IMG/VR virus record: IMGVR_UViG_3300045117_000178
Location: 1-59,847 of that record
Reading direction: 5' to 3' (one strand)
DNA from: a virus
Length of the DNA: 59,847 nt
Shown here: positions 5,247 to 59,847 of the stretch, piece by piece
Layout of the letters: each line of letters opens with the position of its first letter
How positions within the stretch are numbered: position 1 is the first letter of the stretch
Translations under genes and position numbers: made by a program
The notes under the pieces: generated by a model
What the model was told of the DNA's origin: nothing
Seen by the model: the letters and a program-made list of their open reading frames with translations, nothing else
The model's database searches: none

Positions 5247-5275
5247 GAAAAAGCCATCGGAGCTAAGGTTATAAG
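5247..5275 (+). promoter_or_regulatory. Cassette promoter
   Basis: GAAAAA, 17 bp, TATAAG, then GATCAATAAG and a ribosome site AAAGGAG before ATG 5298. One of the best matches to the recurrent plus-strand promoter. Confidence 0.7.
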
Positions 5276-19388: not shown

Positions 19389-20387
19389 ATGCGTTCGATG
19401 CCGAAGAGGTCAACGGTGGAGAGCAGCCAAACCACCAACACCAGATCAGACACCAAGATCGTCACGCCGAAGATGGTAGGAAGCTGGGAAGCACCACCTT
19501 TCCAGAGACCAGTGCAGACCAGCAAGAAGGTCCTGGCACTGGTGGAGCAACTGAAGGCGACCGGTAGGCTGGAGGACAGCGCCATAGTGCTCGGAGAATG
19601 GGAGGGCAGGACCTATATCGTCGACGGGCAGCATCGGCTGAGGGCTTTCATGCTGTCAGAGCTCGAGCGGATGTCAGCGCAGGTCACTGTCCACAATTAC
19701 GAGAAAGGCCCCGCCGGGCTGAGAGCCATGCACGAGACGTACATCCATCTCAACAGCCACCTGGCGCGGCACAGGCCCGACGATCTGCTGCGAGCCATGG
19801 AGGGTGTCAACGTTCATCTGCACCAGATAAAGAGCGCCTGCAAGTTCACCGGATTCGATTACATCAGGCGCGGCCCCACCTCCCCCATCCTGTCGATGTC
19901 GACCGCCATCCGATCGTGGATGAGCAGCGCGTCCGACGTCCCCGGAGGTTGTAGCAAGGGGGCGATGGACATGGTGATGGATCTCACCGACACCGAGACG
20001 AAGAGCCTGATCGATTTCCTCAGCCTTGCCCATGAGGCATGGGGGGACGGGGTAGAGAACAAGCCCTTGTGGGCCGGCCTCAATCTCATCCTCTGCATGT
20101 GGCTCTATCGCAACACGGTCCTTGCTCCGCCGCCGGACAACCCCAAGAAGAAGAACCTCACCAGGGCCCAGTTCTTGAAGGGCTTGTTCGCGTTGGCAGC
20201 GGACAAGAAGTACATGAACTGGATCTTCGGACGTAGTGGGAAGGTGAACGAAGATACGCGCAACCCCGCCTATCGGGAGCTGTTGAGAACGATCAAGAAC
20301 AGAATGAACGCGGAGGGTATCAAGAACTTCCACCTCCCCTGCCCCGACTGGTACAAGGTCACGCAGGGGCGACGCCCCATCCCCTAG
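19389..20387 (+). CDS. ParB/sulfiredoxin-fold protein (DGQHR family)
   Basis: 332 aa, ATG behind GAAAGGAGAACCA. Residues ~39-90 hold the ParB-like fold: FQRPVQTSKKVLALVEQL, VLGEWEGRTYIVDGQHRLRAF. The DGQHR motif is the phosphate-contacting signature of this fold, found in DndB- and ParB-type proteins and some nucleases. The C-terminal two thirds are helical and unrecognised. Role unknown; DNA binding or nucleotide-dependent regulation fits the fold. Single-gene cassette. Confidence 0.7.
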   Translation: MRSMPKRSTVESSQTTNTRSDTKIVTPKMVGSWEAPPFQRPVQTSKKVLALVEQLKATGRLEDSAIVLGEWEGRTYIVDGQHRLRAFMLSELERMSAQVTVHNYEKGPAGLRAMHETYIHLNSHLARHRPDDLLRAMEGVNVHLHQIKSACKFTGFDYIRRGPTSPILSMSTAIRSWMSSASDVPGGCSKGAMDMVMDLTDTETKSLIDFLSLAHEAWGDGVENKPLWAGLNLILCMWLYRNTVLAPPPDNPKKKNLTRAQFLKGLFALAADKKYMNWIFGRSGKVNEDTRNPAYRELLRTIKNRMNAEGIKNFHLPCPDWYKVTQGRRPIP

Positions 20388-47616: not shown

Positions 47617-49463
47617 CGCTTGCGCTTGGGGCGGAAGTCCTCGCCCGAGTCCTTCAGCGGCGCGATGATGTCCGGACGTGGGTACTTGATCATGGATGCC
47701 AGGAAGCAGTACACGATCGAGTGGAAGGTGTCGTCCGTGGTGCCGGGCGAGTGATTGTAGATCGTCATGCGCAGCTGCTTGCTGTACTCGCTGAAGATGT
47801 TGAGGATGTCTTGTCCGTAGGGCTCGAAGAAGTCATCCCAGTTCGGCAGCGCGATCTGCTTGCGGATCATCGCGTTGAACACGTCGCTCATGACCTCTGT
47901 GCGGTGGCACATGAACCGACGTAGCTGCGGCTGCCAGAAGATCTTGCCCTTCTTCTGGTTGGGGTTGTACTGGTACTTGAGCACCTTCTGCGGCCCGAAC
48001 GCGCGGACAAGGTGGTCATTGCGATCGAAGCCACCGCCGTAGTCGCAGCCGGTGATCTGGACGTTGTACCGCGCGAGGATGTTGCAGATGCGGTCGAGCT
48101 GCCGCACAGGCTCCAGGTCCTCACCCACGAAACGGTGTACCCAGAAGACGGTGAAGGCACCAGTCCCGAAGTACGTGCCCAGAGAGATCACGGTGTACGC
48201 ATTCTCTCCCGTCCCCCAGTCGATGCCGGCGAAGATGTCCTGGGTGTGACCGAACTTCATGTAGTACTCGAAGTCGCTGATCCGAATGTCCTCCTTGCAG
48301 CACGCCTTCAGCTGACCTCGAGTGATGGGACGAGTACCGCTGTCGTAGGAGAGGCCGAGGACCTCGTTGTTGAACTTCTGCCTCGGGTAGCGCTTCTGTT
48401 TCTCGAGCAGCCCCTTCCAGCCGTCAGGCGTCTTGACCACCCATGGCACCAGCAGCTGGCTGATGTGGTAGCCCTCGAACGTCACCTTCTCCTTGTTGCT
48501 GTCGGTCGCGGGATTCATCGCAGACCACACAGCGTCAGGGTGGTAGATTTCGATCGGCTGGTGGCAACGGTCGCAGATCAGTCCCTCGGCCCCGATGTTG
48601 TCCTCACCCAAGATGTTCCAATGCCAGGTGCTCTTGTCGCCGGGCACACCATGGTGCTCACAGGGGACGACCCACTCGTTCTGCGTGGAGAAGTTCGCCC
48701 AGTAGTACTCGATGGTGTTGTCTAGGCTCTTGGGCGTGCCGGAGTAGATGAAGATCTTCCAGTCGCTGTGGCTGGCGCACTCCTCGATGACGGGGATGTT
48801 GTCGACCAGGATGTCCTGGATCTCGTCGATGTCTATCAGATCCGTGGGGATACCGCGGACGCGGTCGGCCGTGAGGTAGGCGTAGCGAAGACGGATCTGA
48901 GAGTAGTTGATGAACTTCTTGTGGAAGACCGCATTCGTGAGCTTGGTGTTGGTGTACGCCTGAACGACCGGGCTCATGCTGATCGGGTCAGCGAGACGAT
49001 CGTTGGAGAACACCTTGGTCTGCTCGGCCGAGGGGCTGACGTACAGGCTCTTGAAGTAGTTGATGAGGCAGCTGTAGGCGAGCAGCTTGTTGCCGAGCGT
49101 CGTGCTCTTCTCGACCTGGCGGCCGGCCTTCAGCAGCGTCTTCTTCTCACCCGTGTCGTAGACTCGGCGGAGGTACGGGCGCTCTGCGAACGAGAAGTTG
49201 TCGACCTTGCCCTTGTCCGCAATGCGAATGGCGGTCTCTGAGAACTCGGACGGGGAGACGTTGTAGACGTAGTCGATCTTGGCTTCCGACTCGTCGACGT
49301 CTTCTGGCTCTTCATCGAAGCCGTAGTCCCTGGGCTCACCCTCTTCATCGAGATCGTAGAACGGCTCAGTGTAGATCTTGCCGTCCACAAGCTGCTGTGC
49401 GAGAGCGATCGGAACATCGATCTCTGCGCGGCGTGCTCGAACTCGACGAAGGTCAACAAGCAA
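47613..49463 (-). CDS. terL: Terminase large subunit
   Basis: 616 aa. ATPase part: Walker A LLKAGRQVEKSTTLG at ~111-124 (Glu where many have Gly), Walker B region LIDIDEIQD at ~209-217, and FIYSGTPKSLDNT near ~238-250. Nuclease part: FAGIDWGTGENAYTVISL at ~410-427 and QITGCDYGGGFDRNDHLV at ~465-482, the RNase-H-like acidic motifs, with a later Asp in TDDTFHSIVY. It powers DNA packaging into the prohead and cuts the genome. Start TTG 49463 is the best in-frame choice but has no clear ribosome site, so the N-terminus is uncertain. Confidence 0.85.
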   Translation of the reverse strand: MLVDLRRVRARRAEIDVPIALAQQLVDGKIYTEPFYDLDEEGEPRDYGFDEEPEDVDESEAKIDYVYNVSPSEFSETAIRIADKGKVDNFSFAERPYLRRVYDTGEKKTLLKAGRQVEKSTTLGNKLLAYSCLINYFKSLYVSPSAEQTKVFSNDRLADPISMSPVVQAYTNTKLTNAVFHKKFINYSQIRLRYAYLTADRVRGIPTDLIDIDEIQDILVDNIPVIEECASHSDWKIFIYSGTPKSLDNTIEYYWANFSTQNEWVVPCEHHGVPGDKSTWHWNILGEDNIGAEGLICDRCHQPIEIYHPDAVWSAMNPATDSNKEKVTFEGYHISQLLVPWVVKTPDGWKGLLEKQKRYPRQKFNNEVLGLSYDSGTRPITRGQLKACCKEDIRISDFEYYMKFGHTQDIFAGIDWGTGENAYTVISLGTYFGTGAFTVFWVHRFVGEDLEPVRQLDRICNILARYNVQITGCDYGGGFDRNDHLVRAFGPQKVLKYQYNPNQKKGKIFWQPQLRRFMCHRTEVMSDVFNAMIRKQIALPNWDDFFEPYGQDILNIFSEYSKQLRMTIYNHSPGTTDDTFHSIVYCFLASMIKYPRPDIIAPLKDSGEDFRPKRKR

Positions 49464-49487
49464 AACGAGAACCCCACTTGTTATAAG
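49460..49487 (+). promoter_or_regulatory. Promoter of structured RNA 2
   Basis: GCAAAA, 16 bp, TATAAG, then AGACTTG. Points away from the terminase gene into a region without a credible gene. Confidence 0.6.
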
Positions 49488-49493
49488 AGACTT

Positions 49494-49868
49494 GTAGCGG
49501 AAGCGACGTAAGTTTCTTTCGCTGCGCGCGCAACCTCCGTGTGGTGGTAGGAGGTAGGGTCAATCAGGCCCTCGCTCTCGGTATTTCTAGTTGGGCTTCG
49601 GCCCTTCATCCGAATCGCCTTGAGCATCCGGCCACCAAAACGTGGGAGGCGTTTCCTCCAAGTGTCTCGAGCTTCTATTGCTCCCCCTCGATCAACCAAC
49701 ACCCTAATAGGGACACGTTGGGTGGAGCGTAGTAGCAGAGGGACGCTTTGTCCCCTGGGTGACTAAGCGCCGCGTAGATCCGGCGCGGATCCCAGCCCGC
49801 CACAGCCGGGTAATGCTACTGCGCACCATTCAACGCGGATTGGCGGCTTGGCCGCCAATCATTTAGCT
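49494..49868 (+). ncRNA. Putative structured phage RNA 2
   Basis: About 375 nt between a cassette promoter and a 10-bp hairpin with ATTTAGCTAG. Stems include CCTCC/GGAGG, GGGC-TTCG-GCCC, GGAGG/CCTCC, CCAAC/GTTGG enclosing CCCT-AAT-AGGG (49696-49721), and an 11-bp closing helix (49727-49737 with 49814-49824, one G-U) around three arms (GGGAC/GTCCC, CTGGG/CCCAG with inner GCGCCG/CGGCGC, CCCG/CGGG). This four-way junction and the lack of a convincing ORF point to a folded non-coding RNA. No known family recognised. Confidence 0.6.
49838..49868 (+). terminator. Terminal hairpin of RNA 2
   Basis: Perfect 10-bp stem GATTGGCGGC/GCCGCCAATC with TTG loop, then ATTTAGCTAG. It overlaps the end of the minus-strand gene at 49859. 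Confidence 0.75.
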
Positions 49869-50290
49869 AGCCCCTCTCCGACCTTCCGATCCAGCACCTC
49901 CGCGAACCTGCGGAAGGTGTCCTCATTCGGAGGCAGAGGACGCCTGTTGATGGCCGGCACCGTCACACAGTAGCTGTTGACCTCGGGGATGAACTCCACC
50001 AGAGGCTTGACCGTGGGGTACGACTCCTCGGCCGCGGCCAGGACGTCGAGACCGAAGCTCCCACTGCCCCAGTACCCGTCCTCGACCGTCGGACCCTTCC
50101 ACACGTGGTAGAGTAGGTCTCCCTCCTTCACCAGGTACTTCACGATCACGTGGTCGGTCTCCAGCAGTGGAGCGGCCACCACAACCGCCTTCTCCACGTC
50201 CGAGACCTTGGCGTCGCCCGCCTGGACACCCTTCATGACCTGCGCGCGGTCCTCGTCGCTGATGAATGCTGGCTTCGGTAGATCGTTCAT
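49859..50290 (-). CDS. Hypothetical protein
   Basis: 143 aa. Starts MNDLPKPAFISDEDRAQV; contains DHVIVKYLVKEGDLLYHVWKG and VEFIPEVNSYCVTVPAINR, an alpha/beta pattern. No family recognised. Its stop lies in the hairpin that ends RNA 2. Confidence 0.55.
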   Translation of the reverse strand: MNDLPKPAFISDEDRAQVMKGVQAGDAKVSDVEKAVVVAAPLLETDHVIVKYLVKEGDLLYHVWKGPTVEDGYWGSGSFGLDVLAAAEESYPTVKPLVEFIPEVNSYCVTVPAINRRPLPPNEDTFRRFAEVLDRKVGEGLAK

Positions 50291-55188: not shown

Positions 55189-58100
55189 CTAGTGCGGGTG
55201 CTTCAATCCGAACTCTGCCCCGTGAGCGATCCCCGGTATCGGATGAGTCCCGTGGATGTTTGTTCCCCATCCTTTGTTGGCAGCCTCGATGATCGTTTCG
55301 TGCAAGCGCTCGTGGTTCAATCTTGCCATCCAGTCAGTCTGGATGTCGAGTGGCAGTTTCTGCACGCCTTTGAGGACCGGCGCGTGTTGAATCGGCCGTA
55401 GTCTCTCGGCATTGAGCCGCTTGTTGACGGCTTGGATCTGGGAGGTCGGGGCGAAATCGCCACGCAGGAACTCCTTGTTGTCCCCAGGTTCCTCAACACG
55501 GGTCAGGTTCGTCATGCTCTTGACGATGGTCTCGATGTTACGGCGACGGATGCCCTCGCTCTTGTAGAGATCGTAGAGCTGACTGGAGAGGTAGCCCTGG
55601 ACCTTGCTCAGACCAGCCAACGGCAGGAGCTCGTGGGGGTTGATGGGGCCGTGTGACACTGGGTCTCCCTTCTGCACGGCCATGCCCACGGACAGCTTCT
55701 TGGGCTTGTCACCGACGAAGACGATGGGCTCCCCTCGATCCTGGGGAACGTAGTGGCGCACGCCTTCGACGAAGACGTTCGTTCCTCCAGCCGGGTCCTT
55801 CGAGATCTTCGTGACCTTGCCTTCCATCGTGCTCAGGGTGGCCGACTTTGGGATCTTCTCGTAGAGCTGTACCAGCTGCTTCACGCGGTTGAACTGGTCG
55901 GTCAGCTGAGCTCGTGCCTTGGCCGCCTCTCCCACAGGCGCGATGCCGCCCTCATGGAAGGTCCGCATGGACAGCTGAGTCGCTCGCTCACCGATGGATT
56001 GGGCGCTGATGACCCCGACGTTCTTGCCGATGGCAGGGTGCTGTCCGTTCTCGTCCAAGCCGTAGCACTTGGCGCAGATCCCAGTCCCGTGCTCACACCG
56101 CAGAGGCGATCTCACAATGATCTTGCCGATGCGCGCCTTGTTGTTGCGCAGGCTATCTCGAACCTCCGGCGTGATGAGAGTGCCGGCTGGGAACGTCTTC
56201 TTGCCGATCTTGACATCGACCGCCAGGTGGCGGTCGAGGATGTCCTTCTCCTCTACGGGCAGCGAGATGCCCTTCTTCGTACCACAATCGTGGACTCCGA
56301 CGATGTTGTTGATCACGGAGTTCATGACCTGCTTGGTGAGATAGCCGGGCTCTTCAACCGACTGTACCTTCTGGATGACGCCCTTCCTGGCCCCGGACAT
56401 CGAGGTCCAGTAGTCTCCGGTGTCCAGGCCCTCGGAGTAGGACTTCCTGACGGGCGACGGGATCACCTCACCTTTGGCATTCATGATCAACATGGGAGCC
56501 ATGGTGATCTGCCTGTAGGCGTCGATGCTGGGTTTCACGCCGGCCTTCATCATGTTGAATAGGGCAGTCGGCTTCTTCGAGTGCTGGGTGTCGACGACGT
56601 GCAACATCGCTTGCGTCGCGCCGTCGTAGACCTGGACGACCTTCTTCTCCTTGTCCACCTGCTTGCCGGGCCCCTTCATGATCTCGGCGACCTTGGCATC
56701 AGCCATCCTCAAGATCTTGTCTCTCGTGACTTTGTCGGCCCGCAGATCGTCCAGTCCGAGAGAGAGCGCCTTGTTTGTGGCGAACTGGTTGCCCAGGTCC
56801 TTGAGCTTGTTCGAGACCACACCGAAGTCGTTCTTGTGCTCTTTGGCCACGACCGTCAGGAGTGCTGCCTGTCCCTTGCCATCGAGAACGAAGGTTGGAT
56901 CCAGCACCTTCTTCCGAAGAGGCTCCGGCAGGACTTCAGCAATGAGAGCTCTGCCAACCGTCGTTCTGCCCTGCCCGATCTTCACCTCGTGATTGAAGTT
57001 GATCTTCCCCTGGTGCGCGGCCTGCGCGGCAGTTGCTAGGTCCTTGAAGGACTCATTGGAACGCCCGGTGACCTGTGCCAGCGTGAAGAGGCCCAGCTGG
57101 CTCTCGTGCGTGGGTCGGTACATGATCGAACCGCTGGCAGGGCTGAAGAGATTGCGCGAAGGGAGCATGTCGTACGCTTCCTTCACGGCCTGGGTGGTCA
57201 ACGGGACGAACGCGCTCATGGTGTCGCCGTCGAAGTCGGCATTGTAGCCGGACGTCACCAGCGGGTGGATCTTGATGGCTTTGCCACTGATGAGCACGGG
57301 CTTGAACGCTTGCACGCCGTAGCGATGCAGCACGGGGTCGCGCTTCATCAGCAGCGGTCGGTTGTCGACCACGCGCTCGAGAGCCCTGGAAGCAAGGGGG
57401 TCGTTGTTCTTGATGGCCAGCTGCGCCTGGAGCGGCGTCATGTCTGCCAGGCCGCGCAGCTCACGCACCACGAACGGCTTGTAGATCTCCATGGCCGCCG
57501 TCCGCGGGATGCCGACCTGGTCCAGCCCGAGCTCGGGCTCTGGGATGATGGTCGAGCGCATGCTGAGGTCCTGCTTGCGCTTGATCAGTTTCTCCTGGAA
57601 GAACCCCTCCTTCGGCTTGCCCTCCTTCTCTCCCTCCTTCACGCGCTTTCCACGGATGATGTCGAGCACGCCACGGAACTTCTGGTTGAGGTGGCCGCCG
57701 AGACCGGCAAGCGACCGCATGCCGTCGTAGATGGCCGACCGTCGGTCATCCTTCATGTGGTCGGGCAGAAGTGGACTGGCCTCGTTCATCTTCTTCACGA
57801 GCAGGCCGACGCCCTTGTACATGTGGTTGAGGTCGTCCTCGTTCAGGCTTCCGTTGGGCATGACCGACACCGGGCGTAGAGCCGGTGGGATCACCGGGAT
57901 GTGCTGCTGCATGTAGGCTTCATGCGGCGTCATCCCGAGGTTGCTCAGGACCGACAGATACTTGACCTTCTTGTTCGTGGCATCGAGCTTCGGACCCTTC
58001 AACGCGGGGTCAGCTAGGCGGGCCTGAGCCGCCCTCAGCTCTTTCTGCACGTCGATCTTGCCCAATAGGTGGGAGATCGCCAGGCCGCTGCGCAGGCCTT

Positions 58101-59847
58101 CCTCGGGCTTGACGAACGCGCCGGTCTTCGGGTGGATGGCCTTCTCACCCGACATGACGGCGTCGAAGTCCTTCTGTTTGAGCCCCGTGAGGCTGGTGAT
58201 GGCCTTCTCGAAGATCGGGTTCGGCATGGGCTCGGGCAGCTTGATGTGGGCCCACTTCGTGCCGTCGACACCACCAGTCACCTTCGGGTCGAACAGGCCG
58301 TGCTCTTCCGGCTTCAGGTTCTTCCCGATCACCATCCGTCCGGGGTCCTTGATCGCGCCGTTGCTCATCTCCAGGACGTTCTTGTCCGTGAGCGGCATGA
58401 GGTTGATGGTGTTGCCCTGCTTGACGGCGTTCACTCCGATGGCTTTGAGGTAGCCCAGGAACTTGTTGTAGGCGAACGACGGTTTGGGAGGAGGAATCGG
58501 ATCTCCGGCCTGGATGGCAGACCACAGTTCGTCGTTGGTCTCGGCGTTGCTCTTGTAGGTCTGCATCTCGCGGATGTTGGCTTTCGCCCCGTGCGCCAAC
58601 ATCGCGTACAGGCCCAGTGCGTCGATCGCTTGCGCTCCGTGGGGACCACCACCTTTCGGGATGTGGTTCACGTCGTAGGAGTAGCCGGGACCACCGGCAC
58701 GTGCGACCAGCTTCTTCTCCACCTGGTGCTTGAGCTTGTGAATGTAGTGCGGCCCGACCAGAGCCTCTCCCATAGGCTTGCCGGAGGTCGGGTCGAACAG
58801 CAGCTCCTTGTCTGACAGACCGTGGGCCTTGAGGTCTTTCTGCACGCGATCAAGCCAGTCCTCGGTGCCGTCGAAGTTCTGGATCTGGTAGGGCTTGCCC
58901 GTCTTCTCGGCGATCTTGGCGGCCGCGGTCTCCAGCACCTGGCCAAGGTTGAGACGGCCGGGGATGCCGGCAGGGTTCAGCGCGATGTCGATGTGACGTC
59001 CGTCCGAAGTCTTCGGCATCTCGTGATCGGGCACGATGCGGGTGATGATGCCCTTGTTCCCATGCCGTCCGGTGATCTTGTCACCGATCTCCGCCGCCTC
59101 GTTCGTACGGACGTGGACCTCGACACGCCCACCGTGCTTGACAATGTTCGTGACAATGCCCGGATGATCGGCTTCCCACCGGATGGACGCATCGCTGTAC
59201 GGCTGCACGAGCGACTTGTGCATGCGCGACAGCATCCTCGACTCGTCGTCAGTGATGTCCTTCTTCTTCAAGGCCGCAACGAGGAGGTCGCCCGGCTTGA
59301 TCTCCGTTCCGGGCTTGATCACGCCGTCCTCGTCCAGCTTGTCCATGTGCCCCTTCGTGATCGTGCTTCCGAAGTAGGAGGCGAACTTCTTCCGGTCCTG
59401 CACGTGGTCCGGGCTGAGATCGAGACCCTTCCGGTACATGTGCTCGGACGTCAGTTTGCGCGAGGCGCTGTCGCTGATGACGACGCCGTCCTCGAAGTTG
59501 TACCCATGGAACGGGACGAAGCCGGCGCGCAGGTTGGTGCCCAGAGCCAGACTACCGTTGCGAGTGAAGTTGGTGTCTGCCACCACCTGGTTCTCACGCA
59601 CGCGATCGCCAGGCTTCACAAGCGGCGCGCTGTGCATGAAGCTCTTCTCATCGTTGAGCGGGAAGTGTTCGTACAGCTGCATCTCATGCTTCTTGCCATC
59701 ATCTCCCTGGATGTGGATGTGATCTTTGCCGACCTTCAGCACCTCGCCGGACACCGGAGCTAGATGAGAGCTGCTGCGTCCGATGAGCTCGTTCAGAGTC
59801 GCGGCCGTGGGGGGGGGAAACCGCGTGTGGGAGGGGGGGACATCCCC
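55189..59847 (-). CDS. Multisubunit-type RNA polymerase, beta C-terminal half fused to beta-prime (5' end outside window)
   Basis: Open to the right edge; 1552 residues visible, first internal GTG at 59754. From that GTG: beta motifs YNFEDGVVISD (~85), TGRHGNKGIITRIVP (~228), LNPAGIPGRLNLGQVLE (~259), and KGGGPHGAQAIDALGLYAM (~367). Without a stop, beta-prime follows from ~455: LKPEEHGLFDPKVTGG, KDL...ELGLDQVGIPRTAA, LHRYGVQAFKPV, and the catalytic YNADFDGDTMSAF (~837-849). Later come SGARKGVIQKVQS and GYLTKQVMN, HDCGTKKG with CEHGTGICAKCYG (zinc site), and SIGERATQLSMRTFHEGG. The N-terminal beta-prime zinc finger is not seen. It should transcribe phage genes; the specificity factor is unknown. 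Confidence 0.9.
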   Translation of the reverse strand, partial: GDVPPSHTRFPPPTAATLNELIGRSSSHLAPVSGEVLKVGKDHIHIQGDDGKKHEMQLYEHFPLNDEKSFMHSAPLVKPGDRVRENQVVADTNFTRNGSLALGTNLRAGFVPFHGYNFEDGVVISDSASRKLTSEHMYRKGLDLSPDHVQDRKKFASYFGSTITKGHMDKLDEDGVIKPGTEIKPGDLLVAALKKKDITDDESRMLSRMHKSLVQPYSDASIRWEADHPGIVTNIVKHGGRVEVHVRTNEAAEIGDKITGRHGNKGIITRIVPDHEMPKTSDGRHIDIALNPAGIPGRLNLGQVLETAAAKIAEKTGKPYQIQNFDGTEDWLDRVQKDLKAHGLSDKELLFDPTSGKPMGEALVGPHYIHKLKHQVEKKLVARAGGPGYSYDVNHIPKGGGPHGAQAIDALGLYAMLAHGAKANIREMQTYKSNAETNDELWSAIQAGDPIPPPKPSFAYNKFLGYLKAIGVNAVKQGNTINLMPLTDKNVLEMSNGAIKDPGRMVIGKNLKPEEHGLFDPKVTGGVDGTKWAHIKLPEPMPNPIFEKAITSLTGLKQKDFDAVMSGEKAIHPKTGAFVKPEEGLRSGLAISHLLGKIDVQKELRAAQARLADPALKGPKLDATNKKVKYLSVLSNLGMTPHEAYMQQHIPVIPPALRPVSVMPNGSLNEDDLNHMYKGVGLLVKKMNEASPLLPDHMKDDRRSAIYDGMRSLAGLGGHLNQKFRGVLDIIRGKRVKEGEKEGKPKEGFFQEKLIKRKQDLSMRSTIIPEPELGLDQVGIPRTAAMEIYKPFVVRELRGLADMTPLQAQLAIKNNDPLASRALERVVDNRPLLMKRDPVLHRYGVQAFKPVLISGKAIKIHPLVTSGYNADFDGDTMSAFVPLTTQAVKEAYDMLPSRNLFSPASGSIMYRPTHESQLGLFTLAQVTGRSNESFKDLATAAQAAHQGKINFNHEVKIGQGRTTVGRALIAEVLPEPLRKKVLDPTFVLDGKGQAALLTVVAKEHKNDFGVVSNKLKDLGNQFATNKALSLGLDDLRADKVTRDKILRMADAKVAEIMKGPGKQVDKEKKVVQVYDGATQAMLHVVDTQHSKKPTALFNMMKAGVKPSIDAYRQITMAPMLIMNAKGEVIPSPVRKSYSEGLDTGDYWTSMSGARKGVIQKVQSVEEPGYLTKQVMNSVINNIVGVHDCGTKKGISLPVEEKDILDRHLAVDVKIGKKTFPAGTLITPEVRDSLRNNKARIGKIIVRSPLRCEHGTGICAKCYGLDENGQHPAIGKNVGVISAQSIGERATQLSMRTFHEGGIAPVGEAAKARAQLTDQFNRVKQLVQLYEKIPKSATLSTMEGKVTKISKDPAGGTNVFVEGVRHYVPQDRGEPIVFVGDKPKKLSVGMAVQKGDPVSHGPINPHELLPLAGLSKVQGYLSSQLYDLYKSEGIRRRNIETIVKSMTNLTRVEEPGDNKEFLRGDFAPTSQIQAVNKRLNAERLRPIQHAPVLKGVQKLPLDIQTDWMARLNHERLHETIIEAANKGWGTNIHGTHPIPGIAHGAEFGLKHPH

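Follow-up and report, generated by a model that had tools for sequence, protein, structure and literature searches.

The window, an uncultivated virus record of 59,847 bases analysed over its whole length, contains a gap (49,464-49,858) separating two minus-strand genes, one encoding a conserved 143-aa protein and the other the terminase large subunit (terL). A plus-strand promoter and a structured noncoding RNA lie at this gap (Table 1). The window TerL is a lambda-type GpA ATPase by its match to PF05876, and PHROG and Pfam searches recognised no small-terminase gene beside terL. The 143-aa protein gave no match in Pfam and PHROG searches. Structure comparison produced no firm match, only middling similarity to a number of unrelated alpha/beta folds, and hence an RNA-binding role for this neighbour cannot be claimed. 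The gene order in the terL relatives from IMG/VR was a gene of ~670 aa, a gene of ~300 aa, the 143-aa homologue, the gap and terL. In several relatives (L009/L019, L017/L055, L020/L059, L047-L050 and L062), terL reads as one ORF of ~970-1410 aa; compared to the 616-aa window protein it carries large insertions in frame, possibly inteins. The window also encodes a 1521-aa protein (55189-59754, minus strand) with the C-terminal part of RNA polymerase beta (Rpb2 domain 6) and beta-prime domains 1, 2, 3 and 5; judged by these domains, this single chain is a fused phage-encoded multisubunit-type RNA polymerase.

Table 1. Features at the terminase gap of the window.
Feature	Coordinates	Strand	Description
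Structured noncoding RNA	49494..49868	+	z -4.88; homologous gap and fold in relatives; codon signal absent
Terminase large subunit (TerL), 616 aa	47613..49463	-	phrog_675 (7.9e-61); PF05876 GpA_ATPase (5.2e-08)
Conserved 143-aa protein	49859..50290	-	Far-side neighbour of the RNA; homologues in all relatives
Phage-type promoter of the RNA	49461..49487	+	CAAAA (49461-49465), 15-nt gap, TTATAAG (49481-49487)
P1, 5' hairpin	49494..49525	+	49494-49503 with 49516-49525; MFE
P3/P3a	49574..49625	+	Hairpin GGGC-UUCG-GCCC inside internal loop UAGUU (49588-49592) / UUCAUCC (49605-49611)
Possible P4 and pseudoknot (tentative)	49638..49687	+	GGGAG (49644-49648) with CUCCC in 49680-49687
P6, 11-bp long-range helix	49727..49824	+	49727-49737 with 49814-49824; MFE
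P7, terminal hairpin and tail	49838..49867	+	Perfect 10-bp stem (hairpin 49838-49860), then ATTTAGC tail

The RNA folded on the plus strand with an MFE of -171.2 kcal/mol, a value that none of 100 dinucleotide shuffles equalled, and the z of the reverse strand was only -2.20. The initial annotation had proposed a structured RNA beside the terminase gene, with a long-range helix of 11 bp enclosing three arms and a perfect terminal hairpin, and the fold bears out each of these elements. P6 encloses arms at 49740-49754, 49755-49795 and 49796-49810 and extends outwards, and its counterpart in three relatives (L004, L006 and L007; helix 10) covaries. The P4 pairing and pseudoknot have covariation support in the same three relatives; in the window they are seen as complementarity only and compete with a hairpin of the MFE fold. 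P7 lies right where the 143-aa gene has its stop codon and, together with its tail, is a probable terminator; a simple terminator scan did not call it, the U-rich tail being short. All classes of the RNA described below have such a GC-rich hairpin with an NTTTAG-like tail behind it.

A promoter had also been proposed ahead of the RNA, and it proved to be of a phage-specific type. A simple sigma-70 scan found no promoter, but the CAAAA and TTATAAG boxes fit the consensus CAAA-N17/18-GGTATAAGNA, a recurring phage promoter type also written CAAA-N17/18-GGTATAAG. The window copy is a weaker match, having TTATAAG instead of GGTATAAG, and its upstream box and the terL start codon (TTG) overlap; every RNA homologue starts with GGTATAAG or a near variant of it. 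Two related records contained 12 and 19 GGTATAAGNA sites, whereas the pattern in reverse occurred 0 and 3 times. These 31 sites share a CAAA/AAAA upstream box, and most stand ahead of an ORF that has a Shine-Dalgarno sequence. In the window, CAAA-N17/18-[GT]TATAAG also occurs at 5,270, 12,338 (weaker), 14,334, 19,053, 21,222 and 17,555 (minus strand), and sites of this promoter type lie mostly on the strand opposite terL. The promoter type precedes a ParB-like gene in the window (19053) and in G003/L157, and an HNH gene in G004. No structural gene was recognised downstream among the genes that could be typed, most downstream genes being unannotated. Read from this context, the promoter type would be early or middle. 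An identical 16-mer, TATAAGATCAATAAGA, is common to window sites 46872 and 5270 (+). Two further candidate RNAs carry the same promoter type. One, of ~270 nt (L155 601-1200; G003 near 72,256, minus strand), had no Rfam match at gathering and no tRNA. The other, a candidate small RNA of ~100 nt (L154 701-1050; G004 near 20,257, minus strand), combines a single long hairpin with a T-rich terminator, and no ORF lies within 240 nt.

The conservation of the fold was assessed in L004, L006 and L007 (terL ~73% identical), in which the whole gap can be aligned by sequence alone. This alignment revealed a 13-helix structure including one pseudoknot, in which 95.3% of cells were paired compared to 39-48% (about 42%) with slid partners, a percentage that is favoured by the choice of the structure by eye from folds of the same sequences. 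Much less biased by this choice are the double-changed pairs, of which there were 22; shuffling gave 8.0 on average, and none of 500 shuffles reached the observed number. At paired columns, G-U outnumbered A-C by 17 to 3, which fixes the strand as plus, as expected of an RNA. Absence of covariation in homologues had been named beforehand as a refutation of the structured RNA, and covariation was found.

We then ran a covariance model of the 5' half (R1), trained on L004, L006 and L007 only, on 413 kb of sequence. The matches were L009 (E 2e-07), L008 (2e-05), L002 (0.0016), L019, L003 and the window, all at the orthologous gap and on the orthologous strand, with E-values from 2e-07 to 0.15; restricted to the gap (a 501-base stretch), the window match had an E-value of 1.8e-4. 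A sequence-only model, made from the R1 alignment without its base pairs, found only L009 and its near-copy L019, indicating that the signal is carried by the fold. The corresponding model of the 3' domain (R2), run unfiltered, found L008 (E 0.0024) and missed the window, L002 and L009; the model is too specific and the 3' domain more diverged. Direct comparison of the window with L002 showed that the P1, P3a, P6 and P7 helices correspond, with compensating changes: P3a changes from GGGC/GCCC to GGGU/ACCC in L002 between identical flanks, and P6 is 11 bp in both. A home-made structural aligner applied to all nine sequences produced over-gapped alignments that missed the shared motif, and its output was discarded. 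Sequences L021, L025, L005 and L037, from two contigs of metagenome 3300045146, were 99-100% identical to the window in terL or the RNA region and thus provide no independent evidence. A scan of all IMG/VR contigs for the RNA motif returned 49 stretches, 7 of which were already known terminase loci; 41 of the other 42 lacked TATAAG within 160 bases upstream, and the remaining one, L097, has it at -135.

The expectation that the region holds no credible protein was also upheld. Substitutions between L004 and L007 were even across codon phases in the gap (40/34/32), in contrast to the third-position excess in the adjacent gene (19/15/56), and no conserved reading frame across the gap was found in the relatives. 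ORFs of 134-226 aa that span the gap in relatives, of which only those of L004 and L007 share 55%, were rejected as genes because the nucleotides were conserved as well or better and the codon-phase signal was absent.

In 17 TerL lineages, the same gap holds a promoter-RNA-hairpin gene, which comes in three size classes: ~130 nt (class a, 4 lineages), ~180-210 nt (class b, 6) and ~330-390 nt (class c, 7). All class c relatives retain the P1 hairpin, with pair changes, and the P3 internal-loop motif, where R1 aligns. In relatives with terL ~60% identical, the RNAs in this gap are shorter; they share the promoter and likewise end in a GC-rich hairpin. Class a RNAs (z -6 to -9) consist of three hairpins: one at the 5' end, a long one and the terminal one. 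In class b, the loop of the 5' hairpin is complementary to a 3' segment; a pairing of GCCAUCAC with GUGGUGGC is suggested only, since both are invariant in the five aligned sequences. Size and fold thus change greatly between relatives (~130 to ~390 nt), the cores of the three classes cannot be aligned, and the central domain differs so strongly that one biochemical target shared by all classes is not obvious. Descent from one RNA is indicated by the common place, promoter and end hairpin and by an R1 match within class a, at the gap of L045 (E 0.017 on 413 kb; 0.0026 on its own record). In the terL tree, class a and class b are each split off by a supported branch, and the other RNA-bearing lineages make up class c. 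Inside the RNA-bearing clade, L039 and L059 (TerL ~64-66% identical over the conserved core) have no gap, the 143-aa homologue overlapping terL, and the RNA is absent there; it was also absent in eight more distant terL relatives. A low-sensitivity search of the L059 record for the RNA elsewhere, at its six GTATAAGNA sites, gave no structured gap. Apart from L039 and L059, the terL clade keeps the RNA in this gap, encoded on the opposite strand from the genes.

These sequence data confirm that 49,494-49,868 (+) of the window is a real noncoding RNA gene that has its own promoter, a fold that is conserved and a hairpin resembling a terminator. As to what the gene does, it is possible but rather unlikely that the RNA, or its transcription, acts in cis as an antisense element that opposes the late mRNA running from the 143-aa gene into terL and so keeps terL low until late. 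The entire RNA runs antisense to the gap that precedes terL, the window promoter overlaps the start of terL, and the arrangement is identical in all RNA-bearing relatives, whatever the RNA class. The opposite strand and the promoter are observed features, and the overlap with the terL mRNA is putative. However, antisense action does not need an elaborate covarying fold with a pseudoknot, and the conserved position is weak evidence for it, because the entire local gene order is conserved. Both a processed or untranslated part of an mRNA and a transcription insulator between operons, either having no RNA function of its own, would suit a terminator-like hairpin placed right at the 143-aa gene's stop codon, but there is no ORF downstream in the plus direction and an insulator has no need for 87 covarying pairs, which makes this explanation improbable. 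Since cos or pac sites often lie near the terminase gene, a structured, noncoding stretch at this place might instead be a DNA element, an origin or packaging site with folding single strands; the excess of G-U over A-C on the plus strand points to RNA, however, and with a promoter at the head of the element we regard this as very improbable.

The initial annotation had loosely compared the RNA to the phi29 packaging RNA (pRNA), adding that other roles were equally possible. That caveat was fair, and the structured noncoding RNA part of the interpretation is strongly upheld, covariation included; the likeness to phi29 pRNA was not supported. A component or guide of the terminase motor, similar to phi29 pRNA or replacing the small terminase subunit, would agree with the RNA always adjoining terL where present, with RNA classes that follow the TerL tree and with the failure to recognise a small-terminase gene beside terL. 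It is nevertheless unlikely, given a fold and size that are not conserved, the lack of an Rfam match, a lambda-type TerL, two clade members without room for the RNA beside terL, and a promoter type seen ahead of non-structural and not of structural genes. An extended form of the packaging explanation, to which we give similarly little credence, would make the RNA a new terminase-linked class whose core was rebuilt at least three times, and a part of head assembly or packaging outside the kin of phi29. The constant elements would then be the promoter, the 5' and terminal hairpins and the location in the genome, around a core ranging from one hairpin of ~60 nt to a pseudoknotted multi-domain RNA.

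Our preferred, still tentative explanation is a stand-alone phage RNA gene whose product works in folded form, most probably through binding of a phage or host protein, and regulates infection. A trans-acting folded RNA is preferred over cis antisense control of terL, and packaging is considered a minor option, because the fold evidence indicates that the folded RNA matters; the position of the RNA says little on its own, as the neighbouring genes also keep their order. From the demonstrated gene, fold, strand and conservation, we infer the time of expression, the partner and the effect as follows. Transcription of the RNA would belong to the programme with which the phage expresses its non-structural genes, probably early or middle ones, and the transcript would end at the 3' hairpin. 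Its action would depend on the folded form, and neither on coding nor on base-pairing along its length.

The structured RNAs of phages beyond a few model systems are mostly uncatalogued. For the terminase-gap RNA there is an unusual amount of sequence evidence, comprising a promoter, a covarying fold, a probable end signal and retention throughout a clade. Its threefold change in size between close relatives, at a fixed place, makes it a good case for studying the growth of complex RNAs. As a regulator, the RNA would connect early transcription with the late operon in a phage whose own genome encodes an RNA polymerase. If its action is on packaging, no other RNA of that kind is known to us from outside the phi29 group.

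The RNA represents a new, previously uncatalogued family of the general kind of phage structured noncoding RNAs. None of the 4227 families of Rfam 15 matched at gathering, and the GOLLD, ROOL and OLE models gave no match. A permissive Rfam search returned nothing credible and no pRNA up to E 10 for the window or E 5 for classes a and b. The gap had no DNA similarity to named phages, and a literature search found no paper describing a terminase-gap RNA. Like phi29 pRNA (Rfam RF00044), it is a phage-encoded structured RNA; class a is similar in length, and the position here ties the RNA to a packaging gene. In phi29 pRNA, however, the 5' and 3' ends form one stem below a three-way junction, whereas class a consists of separate hairpins end to end and the 5' and 3' hairpins of class c are independent. 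The packaging ATPase of phi29 is also of another type than the TerL found here, with its PF05876 GpA_ATPase and phrog_675 matches, and the RNA described here differs further in a fold that is not conserved between relatives and in its lack of an Rfam match. The noncoding RNAs of phage K are similarly intergenic phage RNAs with no assigned function; they were found as RNA-seq transcripts (PMC9241854), whereas the terminase-gap RNA is known only from its conserved fold and promoter. GOLLD, ROOL and OLE are large, ornate structured noncoding RNAs, of which GOLLD and ROOL are known from phages (PMC12286853, PMC2864571). The terminase-gap RNA resembles them in being large and ORF-less with multi-arm junctions and pseudoknots, and differs from them in being shorter (330-390 nt at most), in its fixed place beside terL and in having much shorter relatives.
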